Below are positions 40,196-48,421 of a DNA stretch of 64,000 nt, one piece after another (position 1 is the stretch's first letter; each line of letters opens with the position of its first letter). Origin of the DNA: Paucidesulfovibrio gracilis DSM 16080 (GTDB lineage Bacteria > Desulfobacterota > Desulfovibrionia > Desulfovibrionales > Desulfovibrionaceae); NCBI RefSeq assembly GCF_900167125.1, contig NZ_FUYC01000006.1, positions 62,001-126,000 on the forward strand. The letters are read 5' to 3'. A program made the position numbers and the translations under genes. The notes below the pieces were generated by a model that saw only the letters and a program-made list of their open reading frames with translations, did no database searches and was not told the origin of the DNA.

Positions 40196-40573
40196 CTACT
40201 TAGTGTGGCAATCGTTGCACTTGGTCGGGCCTTGCTTCATGGCCTTGTGGCAGCCGACGCAGGAGTGCTTGCTCTTCCGCGCATGCCAAGCGCTGTCGAA
40301 AGAATCGGGATTGCGCTTGTTTTCGCGGCTGATGTCGCTGTGACAGTTGGTGCACTTCATGTCGTCGCTCTCACCCATCTTGTGGTGACAGTCTTCGCAC
40401 TTCAAATCGCCATGCACGCTGTGCGAGAACATCAGCGGGGCATACTTCATCTTGTCGCCGGGGAACTTGATCTCGACATCCTCGGCCGGGGCATCGGCAG
40501 CCACGGCGATGGACAGCGTGAAGGCACCCATGAGGGCGACAGCCAAAAGTGTGATGAACAGAGTCCGTTTCAT
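40196..40573 (-). CDS. Tetraheme cytochrome c3
   Basis: 125 residues. The signal peptide is ~1-26 (cut near AVA-ADAP). Four heme sites all have two-residue spacing: CEDCH 59-63, CTNCH 74-78, CVGCH 105-109 and CNDCH 119-123. Extra His residues (His51, His54, His64, His97) can be sixth ligands. Periplasmic electron carrier between hydrogenases or formate dehydrogenases and transmembrane redox complexes. A paralog lies at 53446-53862. The ribosome site is strong. A TTGACA -35 box lies about 80 bp upstream. Confidence 0.95.
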   Translation of the reverse strand: MKRTLFITLLAVALMGAFTLSIAVAADAPAEDVEIKFPGDKMKYAPLMFSHSVHGDLKCEDCHHKMGESDDMKCTNCHSDISRENKRNPDSFDSAWHARKSKHSCVGCHKAMKQGPTKCNDCHTK

Positions 40574-40817: not shown

Positions 40818-41666
40818 TTATTTCCGTTCATCCACAAGGCTGTATTTCCCGGCATAGCCGCGGGGCGTGAGCATGCGCCCCCCTGAAACGCGGGTGGCGG
40901 AATTGCCCACGAGAACAACGGTCTGCATATCCACATCCTCGGGGTGAATCGCGTCCAGCGTGGTCACGGCAACGCTCTGGCCCGGACGCATGGCCCGGCT
41001 CACGATGCCCACGGGCGTATTCGGATTGCGGTGGCGGGCAATGAGTTCCAGCGCCCGGGGCAGATGTGCTGTGCGGCGCTTGGAGCGCGGGTTATACAGG
41101 GCAATGACGAAATCCGCGCTGGCCGCTGCTTCCACCCGCCGTTCAATGAGCGGCCAGGGCGTGAGCAGATCCGAGAGGCTCACCGAGGCAAAGTCGTGCA
41201 TCAAGGGCGCGCCCAGCAGGGCCGCAGCCGCACAGAGGGCCGGAACACCGGGCAGCACCTCCAGGCGTACCGAGTCCAGGGCGTTGCGCGTTTCCAGCAG
41301 TTCCAGCACCAACCCGGCCATGGCGTACACGCCCGGATCACCGCTGGAGACCACCACGGTTTCCCGGCCGGCCAGCGCGGCATCCACGGCCCGGCCAGCG
41401 CGTTCCACTTCGCCGGTCATGCCCGTGGAAATCACTTGCTTGCCTTCAAGCAATTCCGGCTCCAGCAGGCGGATATAGCCTTTGTAGCCCACAATGGTCT
41501 CGGCCCGGGCCAGGGCGTTGCACACGGCCGGAGTCAGGTGGTCCGGGTTTCCGGGACCGAGTCCGGCCACGACGAGACCGCCACCGCCAGCGTGATGCGG
41601 TTGTTGTGGCGCTTGGGCAGAATCAGAGGACCGTTGTTCGCGCTCAGAATCGCGGCGGCTTCGCAT
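40818..41666 (-). CDS. cobJ: Precorrin-3B C17-methyltransferase
   Basis: 282 residues from ATG 41666. A GTG at 41570 would give 250 residues, nearer the usual family length, and shorten the overlap with cbiG from 133 to 37 bp. SAM-dependent tetrapyrrole methylase: VVAGLGPGNPDHLTP (first Gly-rich loop), VVSSGDPGVYAMAG and EVLPGVPALCAAAALLGAPLMHDFASVSLSDLLTPW are diagnostic of CobJ/CbiH. It drives ring contraction at C17 of the corrin. Translationally overlaps cbiG. Confidence 0.92.
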   Translation of the reverse strand: MRSRRDSEREQRSSDSAQAPQQPHHAGGGGLVVAGLGPGNPDHLTPAVCNALARAETIVGYKGYIRLLEPELLEGKQVISTGMTGEVERAGRAVDAALAGRETVVVSSGDPGVYAMAGLVLELLETRNALDSVRLEVLPGVPALCAAAALLGAPLMHDFASVSLSDLLTPWPLIERRVEAAASADFVIALYNPRSKRRTAHLPRALELIARHRNPNTPVGIVSRAMRPGQSVAVTTLDAIHPEDVDMQTVVLVGNSATRVSGGRMLTPRGYAGKYSLVDERK

Positions 41667-42640
41667 ACTGAAGGAACCCCCATATGCTGTTGTACCAGGG
41701 CGGAGGGGGTGGGCGTGGTCACACGGCTCAACCGGTCCGCTGGATAAAATTGTAGAGAAAGGCCGAGTGTGTCGGCGGCTTGCAGCAGCCCTGGCTCATC
41801 GGCTTTGGCTTCGATGCTGGAAAGGTCGGCCAGCGCCGGAATCGCAAGGCCGTGCTCCTGTACCGTGGTACGAAGGAACGTCAATATTTCCTGGGCGGAC
41901 GTTCCCCGGCGGCAGCCCAGCCCGGCGTGCAGGCAGGGCGGATGCAGGGCAAAGGCGTTTTGCGGGGGCGTTGTCCAGTGAATCCATACCCCTGGAACAT
42001 TTGGGTTCCATGCCTCGGGCGTGCGGCAGGGGTGAAACCAATGGGACAGGGGACGCGTCCCCTGCTTGTGGCGGGAAAAAATATCCAGGGGATCGTACAG
42101 TTGCGGGGCTTCGCCTTCCAGCAACAGGGCGTTGACCGCTTTGATGCAGGGGATGTTGGAGGCACGAAGTTCCAGTTTCCGGGCCAGGTCATCCGGGGCG
42201 GGCAGTCCGGCGCAGTCCGTCCCCGTGGTGATCACGGCTTGCGCCCCGGTGAATTCGGCAATGCGCCGGGTCAGGGCATTGGCTCCGCCCAGATGCCCGG
42301 AAAGCAGACTGACGCAGTGTTTCCCGTTCTGGTCCAGCACCACCACGGCCGGGTCCGTGGCCTTGCTTCGAACATGGGGAGCAATGGCGCGCACCGCGAT
42401 GCCCGTGGCGCCGATGAACACATGGGCCGTGCGGGTGTGAAAAATCCGCTGCATGCATTCGTCCAGAGCGTCGAAGGTCTGCACCATGTCCAGGGCGGAC
42501 GTGTCGGCATGGGCAGCCAGCCGTTGCGGCACCCACAGCTCCGCCTTCAAGAACCGGGCGAGTTCAAGGCCCAGGGGCATCCCAAGGCGGCTGAAGGCAA
42601 GGATCGCCGTGGAGGGTGGATTGGCAGCGGGTTCGGGCAT
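41534..42640 (-). CDS. cbiG: Cobalt-precorrin 5A hydrolase
   Basis: 368 residues. Family signatures are HVFIGATGIAVRAIAPHVRSKATDPAVVVLD (~75-105) and SLLSGHLGGANALTRRIA (~112-130). The C-terminal domain carries GLGCRRGTSAQEI (~243-255) and ends in LPKRHNNRITLAVA. It opens the lactone ring and releases acetaldehyde in anaerobic cobalamin synthesis. It follows the M99 peptidase gene by 81 bp, and no cobalamin riboswitch fits in that gap. Confidence 0.93.
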   Translation of the reverse strand: MPEPAANPPSTAILAFSRLGMPLGLELARFLKAELWVPQRLAAHADTSALDMVQTFDALDECMQRIFHTRTAHVFIGATGIAVRAIAPHVRSKATDPAVVVLDQNGKHCVSLLSGHLGGANALTRRIAEFTGAQAVITTGTDCAGLPAPDDLARKLELRASNIPCIKAVNALLLEGEAPQLYDPLDIFSRHKQGTRPLSHWFHPCRTPEAWNPNVPGVWIHWTTPPQNAFALHPPCLHAGLGCRRGTSAQEILTFLRTTVQEHGLAIPALADLSSIEAKADEPGLLQAADTLGLSLQFYPADRLSRVTTPTPSALVQQHMGVPSVCEAAAILSANNGPLILPKRHNNRITLAVAVSSWPDSVPETRTT

Positions 42641-42721: not shown

Positions 42722-44590
42722 TTAAAACGGACTTGAGAGTTCGGACTCCCCGGAGGACGGGGCGGTACGTTCGGCCGTGCGGGAAAGTCCGGCCCTGTCG
42801 GGCTGCTCCCCGCCCGCCAAAAAGGTCATGGTGCCGATGGGCGCGAAGGTGGTGGCCTGGCGCAGGGAGAGCCGCAAGGGACGACCCGGCTCCAGATGCA
42901 GGTCGGTTCCTGCGCGTACAGGCAGGTCATTGGCCGTGGTCAGGAGTTTGTTCGCCGGGCCGTTGCTCCAGGCGTCCTCCAACACATAGCGTCCTTCGGG
43001 CAGAGGAAAGGTTCCTCCGGGCTGCCAGGGAACCAGCACGCTGTCGCCGTGGCGGTCGCGCAGGCGCAGGGCATGGACCGTGCGGGGCTGCACGGAGATG
43101 TAGAATTCGGCCCGGCGCATGCTCGGGGTTTCGCGCACCACGCGGAACCGGGCGGTGCGACCGGCCTGGGGCGTTCTTCCGGCCCAGCGGGCCAGGGCGT
43201 TTCTGGTGGCGTCCATGGCCGAGTCGGCGTGGCTCTCCAGGCGGTACTTGTCCATGAAATTGTCGGGATCCAGAATGATTTCCCAACCGCAGTCCTGACC
43301 GTCGTTGGATCCGGCCTGGGCCACGTATCCTTTGAGATTGAGCACTTCTTCACGCAGGGATCCCCAGATGCCTTCGAGGATGAGCTGGTCGCCCACCAGG
43401 GCGCGCAATGTCTCGCCCTCATGCAGGAACCGGGGTTCACCGTTGAGCCAGCACACGAACACGGGCGGAGCCAGGGTTTCCGCTGTGGCGGGTTTGCCGC
43501 GCACCCGCACCCTGGCCGAGGCCACCTTGCGGCCGTCCGAGCGGACCTCGATGCCGTGGAAGGACTCCAGGGCCAGCCGGGGCGTATTGACTAGGTTCAC
43601 GCCGGGCCGGTCCGAGGCGAAAACCGCCAGGGCCGGAGCCAGTTCGCTGTTGTCGGGTTCGGTTTCCACGGTAAGGGGGGCGCCCGGAGCCAGATCAATG
43701 GTGTGGCCGGGGGAAAGGGGCTGTCCGTTAACGCGGACATGCACATTGTCCGCGTAGTCCGCCACCACATCGGGCCGGATGGAAGGGGCTTCCACGTCCA
43801 CGCCGTAATGTCGCAGCAGGGCCAGGGTCGCTTCCATCTGGCGCTGCACCTTCCAGTCCAGCTGGGTGATGCTCTTGCTCACTTCCACGGCCAGAGCCGG
43901 GATGTTCAGCGTTGTAAGCGCATAGCAGGTCAGGGATTTGCGCATTTCAGCATAGTTGGTGGCGTCGTCAAAGGTGCGGGTGTTGAAGAGCTGAAAGCGG
44001 TAACTTTTTGGGGAAATATGCGGATTCAATTCCGCGAGCACGTCGTCCACGGCGCGGCCCAGATTCAGCCGTCCGTAGACCATGGCGTCGATGATGATGG
44101 ACTGGCCGTAGCGCATGGGATTGCGCAGGCTGTCCACATAGGTGGGATGATAAAAGCCACTGCCCTCATGCAGGTGGATGAGCGCGTCGGACTGGGCCAG
44201 GAGAAAGCGCACCACCCGGGCCAGCCGATCTTCGTAAAAGGCGTTGTAATCACGGTCGAACCGGCGGTTCATGTCCACATTGATCTGGCGGGTGCGCAGA
44301 TTGATGGAGGGGACGTTGGCGCGCGGCACGATGATGAGGTTGCCTTTGCGCACCCGGGCGTGGGTAAGCAGTTGCGCGGTGATGAATCCCGAGGGTTCGT
44401 CGCCCTGGATGCCGCCCTGGACCATGATGGTTGGGCCGTCCTGGTCGCCGTGCAGAAAAAATACGGTCAAAGGGTACTGGGTGCCTTCAAAGAAGGTGAA
44501 GTCGTAGCGGCCGTGGGTCTCCGCGCTGGAAGGGACGGCGCAGAGCAGCAACAGCAGGCTAATCCAGGCGATGTTGGGGATATGTTTCAC
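42722..44590 (-). CDS. M99-type zinc carboxypeptidase (Csd4/Pgp1-like)
   Basis: 622 residues with an N-terminal signal peptide (~1-23). The catalytic domain has a Q-x-x-E zinc motif, Gln62 and Glu65 in GGIQGDEPSGF, where ordinary M14 enzymes have H-x-x-E. A downstream LIHLHEGSGF supplies His139 or His141. A Gln ligand is the mark of Helicobacter Csd4 and Campylobacter Pgp1, which trim peptidoglycan tripeptides to dipeptides. About 350 C-terminal residues are beta-rich. The start is GTG at 44590, overlapping the upstream gene by 32 bp. Periplasmic. Substrate inferred from family and neighbours. Confidence 0.85.
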   Translation of the reverse strand: MKHIPNIAWISLLLLLCAVPSSAETHGRYDFTFFEGTQYPLTVFFLHGDQDGPTIMVQGGIQGDEPSGFITAQLLTHARVRKGNLIIVPRANVPSINLRTRQINVDMNRRFDRDYNAFYEDRLARVVRFLLAQSDALIHLHEGSGFYHPTYVDSLRNPMRYGQSIIIDAMVYGRLNLGRAVDDVLAELNPHISPKSYRFQLFNTRTFDDATNYAEMRKSLTCYALTTLNIPALAVEVSKSITQLDWKVQRQMEATLALLRHYGVDVEAPSIRPDVVADYADNVHVRVNGQPLSPGHTIDLAPGAPLTVETEPDNSELAPALAVFASDRPGVNLVNTPRLALESFHGIEVRSDGRKVASARVRVRGKPATAETLAPPVFVCWLNGEPRFLHEGETLRALVGDQLILEGIWGSLREEVLNLKGYVAQAGSNDGQDCGWEIILDPDNFMDKYRLESHADSAMDATRNALARWAGRTPQAGRTARFRVVRETPSMRRAEFYISVQPRTVHALRLRDRHGDSVLVPWQPGGTFPLPEGRYVLEDAWSNGPANKLLTTANDLPVRAGTDLHLEPGRPLRLSLRQATTFAPIGTMTFLAGGEQPDRAGLSRTAERTAPSSGESELSSPF

Positions 44591-45272
44591 TGAAAATGAC
44601 CTTTCCGTCTTCTCGCTTGACTGTCAATCGCACTCCATACACGCTGTCCGCTTCCACGGCATCGGGCAGGGAGATGCGCGCCCGCATGGGCTTGCGCCGT
44701 TGGATCTGGAAGGAGAGGTCCGTCCCCTGGGTCTCTAGAGGGACAACCCGGCCGTCGTTGGTGACCAGGGCGAGTTCGGTGTCGCCGCTGAGCAGCGTGT
44801 TGTTCAGGTTATTGAGCAGGTTGAAGTTCACCTGCAACTGCTTGGGACCGAGATTGAGGCGCATGTCTTCGAGCCGGACGGAGCCGGTGTCCACGCGGGG
44901 GAAGAGTTCAGAAAGATTGATGTCGGGGGTTTGGTCGTCCGCGTCCGCAGCGGTGTCCGTGGTGGCCTCGGGGTTTTGTAGCAGGCTCTGCAAATCGCTG
45001 GAATCATATGATTCCAGGATTTTTTCCATGTTTTCCAGGGTGGTCAGCCGCAGTTCCGCTTCCTTGAGCCGTCGGGCAAGTTCGGTATTTTCGCGTTTTA
45101 GGGCAAGGTTGTCCAGCAATGCGGTGGCACCGAAGTAAATGCCGCCCGAGGCCAGCACCACGAGCATGACCAGCGTGAAGACCAGGGCTTTGAGCCAGAA
45201 GGGATTCAGCCGGAACCGCCGGACGTCGAGGTCGTCCCGCATGAAGAGAATGCTGTACTTCGTGTCGTTCAT
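44559..45272 (-). CDS. Single-pass membrane protein with periplasmic coiled coil, unknown
   Basis: 237 residues. A charged cytoplasmic N-terminus (~1-26) is followed by one transmembrane helix (~27-49), a coiled coil (~55-90, LALKRENTELARRLKEAELRL), a disordered acidic stretch (~95-118) and a compact beta-rich C-terminal domain (~130-237). The topology is like MreC/FtsB-type or Csd5-type scaffold proteins. ATG 45272 overlaps the stop of the L,D-peptidase gene (ATGA) and the 3' end overlaps the M99 gene, so all three are coupled. Probably tethers the two wall enzymes; this is inference. Confidence 0.8.
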   Translation of the reverse strand: MNDTKYSILFMRDDLDVRRFRLNPFWLKALVFTLVMLVVLASGGIYFGATALLDNLALKRENTELARRLKEAELRLTTLENMEKILESYDSSDLQSLLQNPEATTDTAADADDQTPDINLSELFPRVDTGSVRLEDMRLNLGPKQLQVNFNLLNNLNNTLLSGDTELALVTNDGRVVPLETQGTDLSFQIQRRKPMRARISLPDAVEADSVYGVRLTVKREDGKVIFSETYPQHRLD

Positions 45273-46531
45273 AGTGCACTCCATTGCTCGCTGACGATAC
45301 GCCAGCCTTGGCCTGTGGGCGTGAACACCAGGGTTTTGCGACCCTTGTCCTCATATCCCGTGGCGTCTTCATAGGTCTGAATGAAGGTGGCGGCGATGCC
45401 TCCGGAATGCAACCGGAAATCGAGATCTTGCAGTCCTACGCGCAAGGGGCGTTTTTCTTCCCAGAGCTGAGCCTTATAGTCACGGATGTGGTCCGCGCCG
45501 CGTCGGGAACCCTGCACGGCGTGCGGGTCATAAAAGCCGGCATAGGTGTCCAGGTCGCCTGTTTCCCAAGCATCGGCCCAGGAGCGGACCAGGGGGGCCA
45601 GGGTTTGGGCGCGGTGTTCAAGATATGTTTTTTGCAGGTCCGGCGCGGCGTCCGTTATTTCCCGACCCGCGATGCGCCAGTTCCCATCGTCGTCCTGCAA
45701 CCAGTATAGCCGTTTGCCCACGGCCGAGGTGAGGCTGCCGGTGCGGTAGAGCTGGTCGAACCATGTGACCCAATACCCGGGTCCGGGCAGGGCATGGACG
45801 TTTTCGACCATCACGTCGATCCAGGGATGGCTGGAGAAGATCCGTTGCTTACGGTTCTGGAACCATTGGAAGTCAACGCCGGAACGGGTCATGCCCTCCG
45901 GGTCGTAATGGGCGAAGAAGTCGTCGCTGCGTCGGCTCCAGTCCTTGGCCCATTGCTGGACCGAGGAGACCAGTTTCCGTGCGAGCAACTGATCCTCGCC
46001 CGGAGTATCGGTCCAGTTCAGCTCGTCCGCGATGACCACGGGCGTGCCGGTGGCCAGGTCATTTTCCAGGCCGTCGATGTCCGGGTCGGCCAGGGCCACG
46101 CAGCCGCGTGTGTCGCGGGGGACGAGCTGCTTGCCGCGGCCGTGCAGCCAGATGCCAGAGCCGGTCTTGCCCCGGATGCGGTCCACGGGGTTGGGATAGT
46201 TCAGCGGATAGGCCACATCGCCGTAAAGCTCCCAATCCAGCCCGCCGCGCAGTCGGCTTTGAATGAAGTAGACGCCTTCCGGGGTGCGCAGGTCGCCCTG
46301 TACCAGCTTGTCTCCGTTGCTCTGTCCGGTGGTGCAGGGCAGGGACTTGAGCAGCTTCAGGGGGCTGCGCCGCGAGAGCATGAAGAGCTGTTGCCGGGCT
46401 TTGTCCACGGCCACGAGCAGTTCCGGTCCCTGTTCGTGCGAATGCAGCACGGGCCGCCACGCCCCGGCAAAGCTGGGCAGCGCGGTGAGAAGCGACAAGA
46501 TGAGCAAGCAGGCGGCAGTGAGTCCCTTCAT
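45269..46531 (-). CDS. YkuD-type L,D-peptidase with two NTF2-like domains (Csd6/Pgp2-like)
   Basis: 420 residues. A signal peptide (~1-22) precedes a YkuD L,D-transpeptidase fold (~35-170) with catalytic His130 and Cys144 (IWLHGRGKQL and TRGCVAL). Two NTF2-like domains follow (~190-290, ending GNWRIAGREI, and ~310-420, ending QGWRIVSEQW). Helicobacter Csd6 and Campylobacter Pgp2 combine YkuD with NTF2 and act as L,D-carboxypeptidases that help set helical shape. Here it begins the three-gene wall module, 30 bp after pyrE. A transpeptidase role remains possible. Confidence 0.87.
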   Translation of the reverse strand: MKGLTAACLLILSLLTALPSFAGAWRPVLHSHEQGPELLVAVDKARQQLFMLSRRSPLKLLKSLPCTTGQSNGDKLVQGDLRTPEGVYFIQSRLRGGLDWELYGDVAYPLNYPNPVDRIRGKTGSGIWLHGRGKQLVPRDTRGCVALADPDIDGLENDLATGTPVVIADELNWTDTPGEDQLLARKLVSSVQQWAKDWSRRSDDFFAHYDPEGMTRSGVDFQWFQNRKQRIFSSHPWIDVMVENVHALPGPGYWVTWFDQLYRTGSLTSAVGKRLYWLQDDDGNWRIAGREITDAAPDLQKTYLEHRAQTLAPLVRSWADAWETGDLDTYAGFYDPHAVQGSRRGADHIRDYKAQLWEEKRPLRVGLQDLDFRLHSGGIAATFIQTYEDATGYEDKGRKTLVFTPTGQGWRIVSEQWSAL

Positions 46532-46561: not shown

Positions 46562-47119
46562 CTATCGCCCCGCGGCCAGCAATTGCGCCCGCGTGAAGAT
46601 GGATCCAAGGTTCAGCCCGGCCTGGGCCAACCGCTGCCGTCCACCCTCCTCACGGTCCAGCACGCAGAGTACGTCATCGACCTGAAGCCCGGCGTCCCGC
46701 ACGCGTTCCACCGAGGTCAGCAAGGTGCCTCCCGTGGTGACCACGTCTTCCAGCAGAACCACACGGGATCCGGAAGGGAAGTTTTTTAGCCCTTCCAGGT
46801 ATTGATTGGTACCGTGTCCTTTGGATTTCTTGCGTATAATAAAAGCCGCCAAAGGACAATTTTTTTCATAGGAAAGAACACTTACGGCGGAAACCAGAGG
46901 ATCCGCGCCCAGCGTCATGCCGCCCACACCCGCGATGTCGCGGCCCTGGAGCATTTCCAGAAACAGGTTGGCGATGAGCCAGCCCCCTTCGGGGTGCAGA
47001 GCGGTCTGTTTGCAGTCAAAATAATAATCGCTTTTTTTGCCGGAGGTGAGGGTCACTTCGCCTTCCACATAGGAAAGCTCCAGCAGCAGCCGGGCGAGCC
47101 TGGATGTATAGTCGGACAT
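46562..47119 (-). CDS. pyrE: Orotate phosphoribosyltransferase
   Basis: 185 residues. The PRPP-binding motif VVLLEDVVTTGGTLL is at ~118-132. The catalytic-loop lysines lie in FIIRKKSKGHGTNQ, and TSGKKSDYYFDCKQ is near the N-terminus. It makes OMP in pyrimidine synthesis. Three bases after the purB stop, with AAAGGA upstream. Confidence 0.95.
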   Translation of the reverse strand: MSDYTSRLARLLLELSYVEGEVTLTSGKKSDYYFDCKQTALHPEGGWLIANLFLEMLQGRDIAGVGGMTLGADPLVSAVSVLSYEKNCPLAAFIIRKKSKGHGTNQYLEGLKNFPSGSRVVLLEDVVTTGGTLLTSVERVRDAGLQVDDVLCVLDREEGGRQRLAQAGLNLGSIFTRAQLLAAGR

Positions 47120-47122
47120 GGA

Positions 47123-48421
47123 TCAATCCTTTCCATAGACGCGGTCGTAGATTGTGCTTTCATACCGCAGGTAATAATTGGGGTCAAACGCATCCGCAAA
47201 ATCCTCGGGTGAGAGGTGTTCGCAGAGCGCCGCGTCCGCTGCGGCCTCGGTCTGAAACGCCTTGCGTTCCTCCCAGCAGCGCAGGGCCACGGCCTGAACC
47301 ATCTCGTAGGCTTTCTGGCGTTGCAGCCCCTTGTCCAGCAGCTTGACCAGCAGGCGCTGGGAATAGAACAGCCCGAACGAACCTTCCAGGTTGCGGTCCA
47401 TGTTGTGGGCGTTGATTTTGAGGCGGTCCAAAAGGCCGGCCATGCGGGCCAGGATGTAGTCCATGAGGATAGTGGAATCGGGCATGATCACGCGTTCCAC
47501 CGAGGAGTGGGAGATGTCCCGCTCATGCCACAGGGGCATGTTTTCCATGGAGGCCATGGCGTTGGTGCGCACCAGCCGGGACAGACCGCAGAGATTTTCT
47601 GCGGAAATGGGGTTCTTTTTGTGGGGCATGGCCGAGGAGCCTTTTTGCCCTTTGGAAAAGCCTTCTTCCACCTCCAGCACTTCGGTGCGTTGCAGGTGGC
47701 GCAGTTCCGTACCCAGGCGTTCGATGCCGCCGGCCAGAAGCGCCAGCGCAGTGAAATAGTGGGCATGGCGGTCGCGCTGCACGATCTGGGTGGAGAAGGG
47801 ATCGGGTTCCAGGCCGAGGCGTTTCATGGCCAGGGCTTCCAGCTCGGGGGAAAGATGGGCGTAGGTACCCACGGCCCCGGAAATTTTGCCCACGCGCATG
47901 CCTTCACGGGCGGCTTCGAACCGGGCCTGATGCCGTTTGAATTCCGCGTAAAAGCCCGTGAGCTTCAGGCCGAAGCTGGTGGGTTCGGCGTGGATGCCGT
48001 GGGTGCGGCCCATGCAGAGCCGACCCTTGTGTTCGTCGGCCAGACGTTTGATGCTGGCCAGCAGATTTTCCAGTCCCTCGGCGATGATCCGGCCTGCGCG
48101 GGTCAGGAGCAGGCCGTTGGCCGTATCCACGATGTCCGAGGAGGTGCAGCCCAGGTGGATCCAGCGGGAAGCCGGACCGACTTTTTCTTCCACGGCCGTG
48201 AGAAAGGCGATGACGTCGTGTTTGGTGCGTTGCTCGATTTCCAGGATGCGGTCCAGGTCGAAATCGGCCTTTTCCCGGATGGTCTGCATGTCGTCCTGTG
48301 GGATGACGCCTTGTTCGCACCAGGCCTCGCACACGGCCAGTTCCACTTCGAGCCAGGCCCGGAATTTATTTTCCAGGGTCCAGAGCCGGGCCATTTCGGG
48401 GCGTGAATAGCGTTCGATCAT
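47123..48421 (-). CDS. purB: Adenylosuccinate lyase
   Basis: 432 residues. The fumarase/aspartase-family signature GSSAMPHKKNPISAEN is at ~264-279. HLGCTSSDIVDTANGL (~87-102) and GRTHGIHAEPTSFGLK (~138-153) carry the active-site His and Ser loops. It acts twice in purine synthesis. Ribosome site GAGG. First gene of the long minus-strand run that ends with cobJ. Confidence 0.96.
   Translation of the reverse strand: MIERYSRPEMARLWTLENKFRAWLEVELAVCEAWCEQGVIPQDDMQTIREKADFDLDRILEIEQRTKHDVIAFLTAVEEKVGPASRWIHLGCTSSDIVDTANGLLLTRAGRIIAEGLENLLASIKRLADEHKGRLCMGRTHGIHAEPTSFGLKLTGFYAEFKRHQARFEAAREGMRVGKISGAVGTYAHLSPELEALAMKRLGLEPDPFSTQIVQRDRHAHYFTALALLAGGIERLGTELRHLQRTEVLEVEEGFSKGQKGSSAMPHKKNPISAENLCGLSRLVRTNAMASMENMPLWHERDISHSSVERVIMPDSTILMDYILARMAGLLDRLKINAHNMDRNLEGSFGLFYSQRLLVKLLDKGLQRQKAYEMVQAVALRCWEERKAFQTEAAADAALCEHLSPEDFADAFDPNYYLRYESTIYDRVYGKD

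Follow-up and report, generated by a model that had tools for sequence, protein, structure and literature searches.

Three overlapping genes of a sulfate reducer include two for relatives of the Csd/Pgp shape proteins: what do the three do, and could they be what makes such cells curved? The genes lie on the minus strand at 42722-46531 of a 64,000-nucleotide stretch of Paucidesulfovibrio gracilis DSM 16080 (contig NZ_FUYC01000006.1, positions 62,001 to 126,000), hereafter the window. They encode a YkuD-type peptidase of the Csd6/Pgp2/Bd1075 family (csd6), a membrane protein in the middle, labelled tether after a proposed role, and a carboxypeptidase of family M99 (m99). A first-pass annotation of the window had read them as one operon which may set the vibrioid shape of the cell. 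In Helicobacter and Campylobacter, csd6/pgp2 is encoded apart from csd4/pgp1. Here the three products were assigned by profile and structure searches, their distribution was surveyed in genomes of the order Desulfovibrionales and the phylum Desulfobacterota, and gene content was compared with reported cell shapes. Taking homology and these comparisons together, we lean, with some reserve, towards the cluster being a periplasmic peptidoglycan-trimming module that makes cells curved. New relative to the Csd/Pgp shape pathway are the linked gene cluster, the enzyme with two NTF2 domains and the family of the membrane protein.

Gene products of the cluster

The features of the cluster are as follows; AlphaFold2 confidence is given as the predicted local distance difference test (pLDDT).

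45269..46531, minus strand: csd6/pgp2/bd1075-type gene, 420 amino acids (aa) (Pfam and PDB matches, conserved H130 and C144)
46001..46420, minus strand: YkuD domain, residues ~38-177, with H130 and C144 (PF03734, 2e-15; PDB 7o21, 4e-31)
45656..45976, minus strand: NTF2-1, residues ~186-292, Csd6_C type (PF24125, 2.8e-25, best stretch 187-287; aligns to Csd6)
45275..45628, minus strand: NTF2-2, residues ~302-419, Bd1075 type (Y387/W417 aligned to Bd1075 Y274/W303)
45269..45272, minus strand: ATGA overlap of csd6 stop and tether start (sequence)
44559..45272, minus strand: tether gene, 237 aa (AlphaFold2 mean pLDDT 86.5; relatives in 190 of 247 order genomes)
45207..45257, minus strand: N-terminal hairpin motif of the tether, residues 6-22 (model; tethers outside the order have a similar segment)
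45009..45203, minus strand: continuous helix of the tether, residues 24-88, membrane span and then coiled coil (AlphaFold2 model; span and coiled coil by eye)
44565..44891, minus strand: Ig-like beta-sandwich of the tether, residues 128-236 (AlphaFold2 model, structure matches)
44559..44590, minus strand: 32-bp overlap of tether and m99 (sequence)
42722..44590, minus strand: m99 gene, 622 aa, GTG start (PF17033, 4.1e-34; PDB 4q6m, 1.5e-26; Csd4 fit, Z 28.7)
43793..44473, minus strand: M99 catalytic domain, residues ~40-266, with Q62, E65, H141 and E236 (alignment to Csd4, model fit)

The claims of the first-pass annotation on domains and overlaps held throughout: the ATGA and 32-bp overlaps joining the three genes are present at the coordinates given, and the profile searches for M99, YkuD and NTF2 families all found their match. 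On its sequence the 420-aa protein is a YkuD enzyme with two NTF2-like domains, as had been described, and belongs to the Csd6/Pgp2/Bd1075 family; Pfam matches are to YkuD, to Cds6_C (PF24125, over two stretches) and to SnoaL_3 at residues 314-419, and a signal peptide, judged by eye, is probable. The closest solved structures are 7o21 (4e-31), 4xzz (3.8e-25) and 6xj6 (1.8e-19), that is, Bd1075 of Bdellovibrio, Csd6 of Helicobacter and Pgp2 of Campylobacter (PMC8938487, partial text). The catalytic H130 and C144 are conserved in 59 of 59 relatives. With Csd6 and Pgp2 the protein shares the YkuD domain and an NTF2 domain of Csd6_C type, to which it adds a second NTF2. With Bd1075, the LD-carboxypeptidase behind the vibrioid curvature of Bdellovibrio bacteriovorus, it also shares YkuD and NTF2, and NTF2-2 aligns over the whole Bd1075 NTF2 domain; the window protein differs by one extra NTF2 domain in between and by its place in a three-gene cluster.

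The resemblance of NTF2-2 to Bd1075 extends to residues known to matter. The Bd1075 NTF2 domain scores 67.4 bits on the NTF2-2 profile and 44.6 bits on that of NTF2-1, and Y387 and W417 of the window protein align, in the sequence alignment, with Bd1075 Y274 and W303, both of which Bd1075 needs for convex-face targeting and curvature (PMC8938487, partial text). Position 417 is Trp in 55 of 59 order sequences (one Phe, three gaps from single-NTF2 proteins) and position 387 is Tyr in 46 and Phe in 12 of the 59. Outside the order the terminal Trp was found in 36 of 44 sequences, with five Phe and three gaps, several ends being poorly aligned. In the same paper, as far as its available text goes, W303 is stated to be absent from other LD-carboxypeptidases and is described as a unique feature of Bd1075; given the counts above, the aligned sequences indicate that this Trp is not peculiar to Bdellovibrio and has counterparts across Desulfobacterota.

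The 622-aa protein had been called a zinc carboxypeptidase with a Q-x-x-E motif, and this is what the searches returned. It scores 118.7 bits on Peptidase_M99 (PF17033) against a curated cut-off of 27, and its closest PDB chain is Csd4 (4q6m). The metal ligands of the Q-x-x-E...H pattern are Q62, E65 and H141, the general base is E236, and the equivalents of all four are invariant over 37 aligned sequences. Of the 16 active-site and meso-diaminopimelate (mDAP)-contact residues of Csd4 (taken from PMC4220969, partial text), the window protein shares 14, both arginines included; the two that differ are Trp148, here Tyr161, and Gly131, here Ser144. The AlphaFold2 model (mean pLDDT 86.7) has Csd4 as its top Foldseek match (6.5e-25), and structural alignment to Csd4 covers 283 residues at 3.2 A (model residues 40-362). 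Other alignments to Csd4 extend to model residue 501 at a root-mean-square deviation of ~15 A, so that the last domain is placed differently or with uncertainty. The protein is best described as a Csd4-type M99 carboxypeptidase with further beta domains and, by eye, a probable signal peptide. It shares with Csd4/Pgp1 the metal ligands, the mDAP-binding residues and the fold, and differs from them in its divergent sequence, in ~90 more C-terminal residues, which are ordered in the model beyond the Csd4-matched part, and in its linkage to csd6. Confidence in the family assignments of both enzymes is high.

No family above its cut-off was found for the middle protein in Pfam or NCBIfam, the best Pfam match being a sub-threshold LapA_dom (18.5 against a cut-off of 28), and the profile counts given below mark it as what appears from sequence to be a new, unnamed and conserved family of membrane proteins. 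Its reading frame is 237 aa from the second ATG, or 241 aa from the first ATG at 45284. The AlphaFold2 model (predicted template modelling score 0.50) consists of a hairpin, a long helix, a low-confidence stretch and a beta-sandwich; the first 20 residues have a pLDDT of ~67-80, and the hairpin is among the most conserved segments. Structure matches of the sandwich are generic and mostly Ig-like (Z at most 10.7, to glycoside hydrolase domains; Foldseek top match NPC2, 3.1e-4). From this modelled layout the protein is presumably a single-pass inner-membrane protein with a coiled coil and a periplasmic sandwich. In Csd5 of Helicobacter a short cytoplasmic part is followed by a single membrane span, a coiled coil and an SH3-type domain in the periplasm. 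The proposal that the middle protein is a Csd5-like scaffold thus stands as regards the layout, to the extent that model and predicted topology are right, but gains no support as regards descent: the sandwich is Ig-like in the model and not SH3-type, and the searches revealed no sequence kinship with Csd5. No Pfam or NCBIfam family scored above cut-off and no SH3 match was noted among the structure matches listed, results that do not argue against a relationship either. That the protein acts as a tether or coupling part is a tentative suggestion drawn from its layout. Second copies occur in a few genomes: one lies away from the cluster (G201, contig C6, 18104-18949, E 8.8e-57), and four further genomes (G218, G090, G117 and G236) have a second copy or more than one tether match.

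Conservation and linkage within the order

The order sample comprised 247 genomes. M99 was matched in 172 of them, the tether in 190 and Csd6_C in 204, of which 196 exceed the cut-off. All three genes occur together in 164 genomes and none in 35, while 19 have csd6 and tether and 16 csd6 only; the rarer classes are M99 with csd6 (5), tether only (5), M99 with tether (2) and M99 only (1). Association statistics for these joint counts ignore kinship. A strict one-to-one link of the trio with curvature was discarded in view of the 19 genomes with csd6 and tether lacking M99 and the 35 with none.

To read gene order, 40 loci of the window type were fetched, picked to cover genera, from the 91 genomes with a top M99 match weaker than 1e-50. 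In 36 of the 40, csd6, tether and M99 are adjacent, in this order and on one strand, which argues for linkage beyond chance. The exceptions are three loci without tether, all of one family, and one in which the contig starts within the tether. The gene order on the minus strand of the window is purB, pyrE, csd6, tether, m99, only the last three overlapping; the two upstream genes, named by eye, are:

46562..47119, minus strand: pyrE, upstream neighbour in most loci read (locus reading)
47123..48421, minus strand: purB, found upstream in 38 of the 40 window-type loci (locus reading)

The two loci in which purB was not seen start too close to the cluster. In one family (L120 3625-6354, L121, L235 5903-6634, L236 5689-6417) two tandem csd6-like genes were seen elsewhere in the genome, and the tether sits after purB-pyrE and a small unidentified frame.

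M99 is not always part of the cluster. In 81 order genomes a canonical M99 (E below 1e-50) is carried in place of the cluster M99; nearly all canonical M99 of other Desulfovibrionaceae reach ~255-302 bits on the M99 profile, the window protein ~120. Neither csd6 nor tether was found within ~5 kb of the canonical M99 in any of 20 loci read (L072-L091), and in 12 of 12 csd6 loci from canonical-M99 genomes (L106-L117) csd6 and tether are kept behind pyrE without M99. M99 as a fixed member of the cluster was discarded on these two counts, and the claim of a one-operon set thus survives as a conserved cluster in most window-type loci, but not as a rule for M99, which is often elsewhere while csd6 and tether remain together. 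A FastTree phylogeny built from 106 catalytic domains puts the 20 canonical M99 in one split (support 1.0) and 42 window-type M99 of the order in another (1.0). This is most simply read as replacement of one M99 by the other within a pathway that persisted. Two genomes outside the order (G465 and G546) each carry the cluster M99 and a canonical-type M99, as is expected if canonical M99 spread by transfer and can precede displacement. Locus L118 (3230-4972, genome G048), whose M99 frame is split in two, with decay and assembly error not told apart, was excluded from the tree.

These data bear on a reading in which the curvature module is csd6 (with NTF2-2) plus the tether only and M99 is an optional companion. 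It agrees with the 19 genomes having csd6 and tether without M99, one of them matched to a Desulfonatronospira record, and with Bd1075 being the sole shape determinant in its paper, in whose available text Csd4 is absent from the main part and Pgp1 appears in the references only (PMC8938487, partial text). It sits less well with the tether being present in 166 of the 172 M99-bearing order genomes and with the other M99 lineage often being present where the cluster M99 is missing (81 genomes). We regard it as possible, and as the strongest competitor of a module in which all three proteins work together.

The cluster outside the order

The phylum sample was 395 genomes, 15-16 of the matches falling in the window's own family. 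M99 was matched in 73, a csd6-like gene in 222 (many weak) and the tether in 62, where matches beyond the order had E 1e-13 or weaker. Among the 58 M99 genomes from outside the order, csd6 stands on the same strand at most 4 kb upstream in at least 46, and 12 do not show this; the spacing between csd6 and M99 is 700 nt or more in 39 of those 46, and the genome-wide tether search gave a match in 17 of the 46 neighbour loci and none in the others. When 44 of the 46 loci were read (G333 and G486 not included), a frame was found between csd6 and M99 in 39, one of them spurious (60 aa), and none in 5. The tether profile matches at E 1e-3 or better in 27 of the 44, and most of the remaining intervening frames show, by eye, a similar N-terminal segment and a membrane span. 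The idea that the weak tether matches outside the order are coiled-coil noise was discarded, as many of them sit between csd6 and M99. The csd6-tether-M99 order is old in the phylum, as follows from this neighbourhood with its intervening frames, and trio-bearing genomes span many families of Desulfobacterota.

Cell shape and gene content

The clearest shape comparison is between sister genera. Desulfoplanes formicivorans has vibroid cells (PMC5460402, partial text), and the genome that fits it carries csd6 with the terminal Trp, tether and M99. Cells of its sister genus Desulfomicrobium are described as straight or ellipsoidal, without the Desulfovibrio curve (PMC8069399, partial text), and those of Desulfomicrobium baculatum as short rods (PMC3035215, partial text). 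Among the 10 genomes under the genus label of D. baculatum (G044), tether and M99 were found in none, and the csd6 of all 10 keeps the catalytic His and Cys with a degenerate NTF2-2, where the Trp position is Thr (5), Ala (3) or Gly (2). The DsrA DNA of two genomes of this genus is ~90% identical to a Desulfomicrobium record, whose genome also lacks M99 and tether. Since Desulfomicrobium swims by a polar flagellum (PMC8069399 and PMC3035215, partial texts), the gene loss is not a simple consequence of lost motility.

Two further named taxa point the same way. Desulfovibrio piger FI11049 is a nonmotile rod (PMC5313605), and csd6, tether and M99 were all not found in the D. piger genome (G162). 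D. retbaense forms straight to slightly curved rods (PMC3035252, partial text) and has a single-NTF2 csd6, no M99 and a weak tether match (3.6e-6). The three cases look like separate losses or erosions. The set is eroded or lost in those rod-shaped taxa that could be named; as to whether the trio is equally common in straight rods, these few taxa lack the full set.

A number of observations weigh against a role in curvature. Just three loss or erosion events are tied to named rod-shaped taxa, in a comparison which ignores phylogeny; D. retbaense, with its weak tether match, is straight only in part, and Desulfomicrobium retains the YkuD His and Cys. Other probably curved taxa lack M99. A Desulfonatronovibrio metagenome-assembled genome (MAG), vibrio by name, has neither M99 nor tether (its completeness is not stated, and csd6 was not searched for), and the 19 order genomes with csd6 and tether lacking M99 include a Desulfonatronospira MAG; in three Desulfonatronospira MAGs M99 was found in none and the tether in two. 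Genome G103, probably a Lawsonia, also lacks M99, and its csd6 gene lacks the YkuD domain. Lawsonia is listed as vibrio with a G+C of 32.9-33.1% (PMC9174804 Table 1, partial text); the G103 csd6 locus has 31%. In that locus (L231 1345-3179; L273 6103-7937) the NTF2 pair and terminal Trp are kept, the tether lies directly behind, and no YkuD match was obtained by tblastn, so that the NTF2-tether pair seems to be retained on its own. The same table lists Paucidesulfovibrio as rod, vibrio or spirillum, a genus listing which does not settle the curvature of the window organism itself, and gives rods in several further genera that could not be placed in the sample (PMC9174804 Table 1, partial text). 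The terminal Trp may be common among NTF2-like domains, unrelated ones included. The suggested vibrioid-shape role has the contrast of Desulfoplanes with Desulfomicrobium on its side and the probably curved taxa lacking M99 against it.

Genomes reached via DsrA loci, mostly MAGs, had M99 in 4 of 16 and tether in 4 of 15, and neither was found in two cultured Desulfobacterales reached in this way. In Desulfothermus okinawensis (L209) the M99 frame is interrupted by one internal stop, through decay or an assembly error, and the tether was not found.

Proposed mechanism and its alternatives

In the proposed mechanism the YkuD enzyme would act as an LD-carboxypeptidase converting tetrapeptide to tripeptide, like Pgp2, and the M99 enzyme would act next as a DL-carboxypeptidase on the tripeptide, like Pgp1/Csd4, both activities being expected from homology. 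This order of action is borrowed from Campylobacter, where Csd6-type trimming precedes M99-type trimming (PMC3961634, partial text). NTF2-2, which resembles the convex-face targeting domain of Bd1075, would direct trimming to one side of the wall; that side would become mechanically different and the cell would bend. The middle protein, in the inner membrane, would probably couple the enzymes, via its coiled coil and periplasmic sandwich, to a cytoplasmic partner bound at the N-terminal hairpin. The role in curvature derives from the shape comparisons, and the membrane topology and tether role from the protein layout. The three bactofilin genes of the genome, considered as encoding a possible partner, all lie on contigs other than that of the cluster.

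A second reading keeps curvature and sees in the middle protein no tether but a factor that acts on the YkuD enzyme, as chaperone, inhibitor or activator. The middle protein is indeed bound more closely to csd6 than to M99 (the 19 genomes and 12 of 12 loci given above), and its Ig-like sandwich might simply bind an NTF2 domain; the conserved juxtamembrane hairpin, presumably cytoplasmic and recognisable outside the order, would however be superfluous for a purely periplasmic regulator, and we find this reading doubtful. Least likely of those weighed is a general peptidoglycan-trimming or recycling module, shortening stem peptides without a shape role and lost from rods in the ordinary course, which could draw on the spread of trio genomes over many families, on Lawsonia keeping NTF2 domains without the enzyme and on the Desulfonatronovibrio MAG lacking tether and M99, but would leave unexplained why Desulfomicrobium erodes NTF2-2 yet retains the catalytic His and Cys, why its vibrioid sister Desulfoplanes retains everything, and why homologous enzymes determine cell shape in Helicobacter, Campylobacter and Bdellovibrio (PMC8938487 and PMC3961634, partial texts).

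The curvature module may also be taken further, as a relay used across the phylum: the cytoplasmic hairpin would read a cytoskeletal or curvature cue, the membrane protein would bring two consecutive carboxypeptidases to one side, and NTF2-2 would be a general convex-face tag shared with Bdellovibrio. We offer this extension as speculation, somewhat ahead of a regulator role for the middle protein. If true, it would amount to a dedicated inside-to-outside relay for one-sided wall trimming.

In the open-licence literature no paper was found joining Csd names with Desulfovibrio, and none among the matches listed explains Desulfovibrio shape by these enzymes. A curvature paper on the actin-like Mad28 of the vibrioid Solidesulfovibrio magneticus RS-1 has, in its available text, no mention of a Csd protein or carboxypeptidase (PMC12713370, partial text), and the Bd1075 paper uses neither "tether" nor "operon" in its available text (PMC8938487, partial text). 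The cluster provides a short list of candidates for the curvature of Desulfovibrio and its relatives, with W417 as a test point of one residue, and the losses seen in Desulfomicrobium, D. piger and D. retbaense allow the curvature idea to be tested in existing strains. For S. magneticus RS-1, upp-based genome editing is described (PMC6210102), and Nitratidesulfovibrio vulgaris Hildenborough is likewise tractable. NTF2-bearing LD-carboxypeptidases that trim one side of the wall may be an ancient and widespread route to curved cells.

Neighbouring genes

The window genus is represented by two genomes in the sample, with a G+C of 61%. Downstream of the cluster, at 40818-42640 on the minus strand, two overlapping frames look by eye like cobalamin-biosynthesis genes (cbiG-like and a precorrin methyltransferase). 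At 40196-40573, also on the minus strand, lies a frame for a small secreted-looking protein with several CxxCH motifs, by eye probably a tetraheme cytochrome c3.

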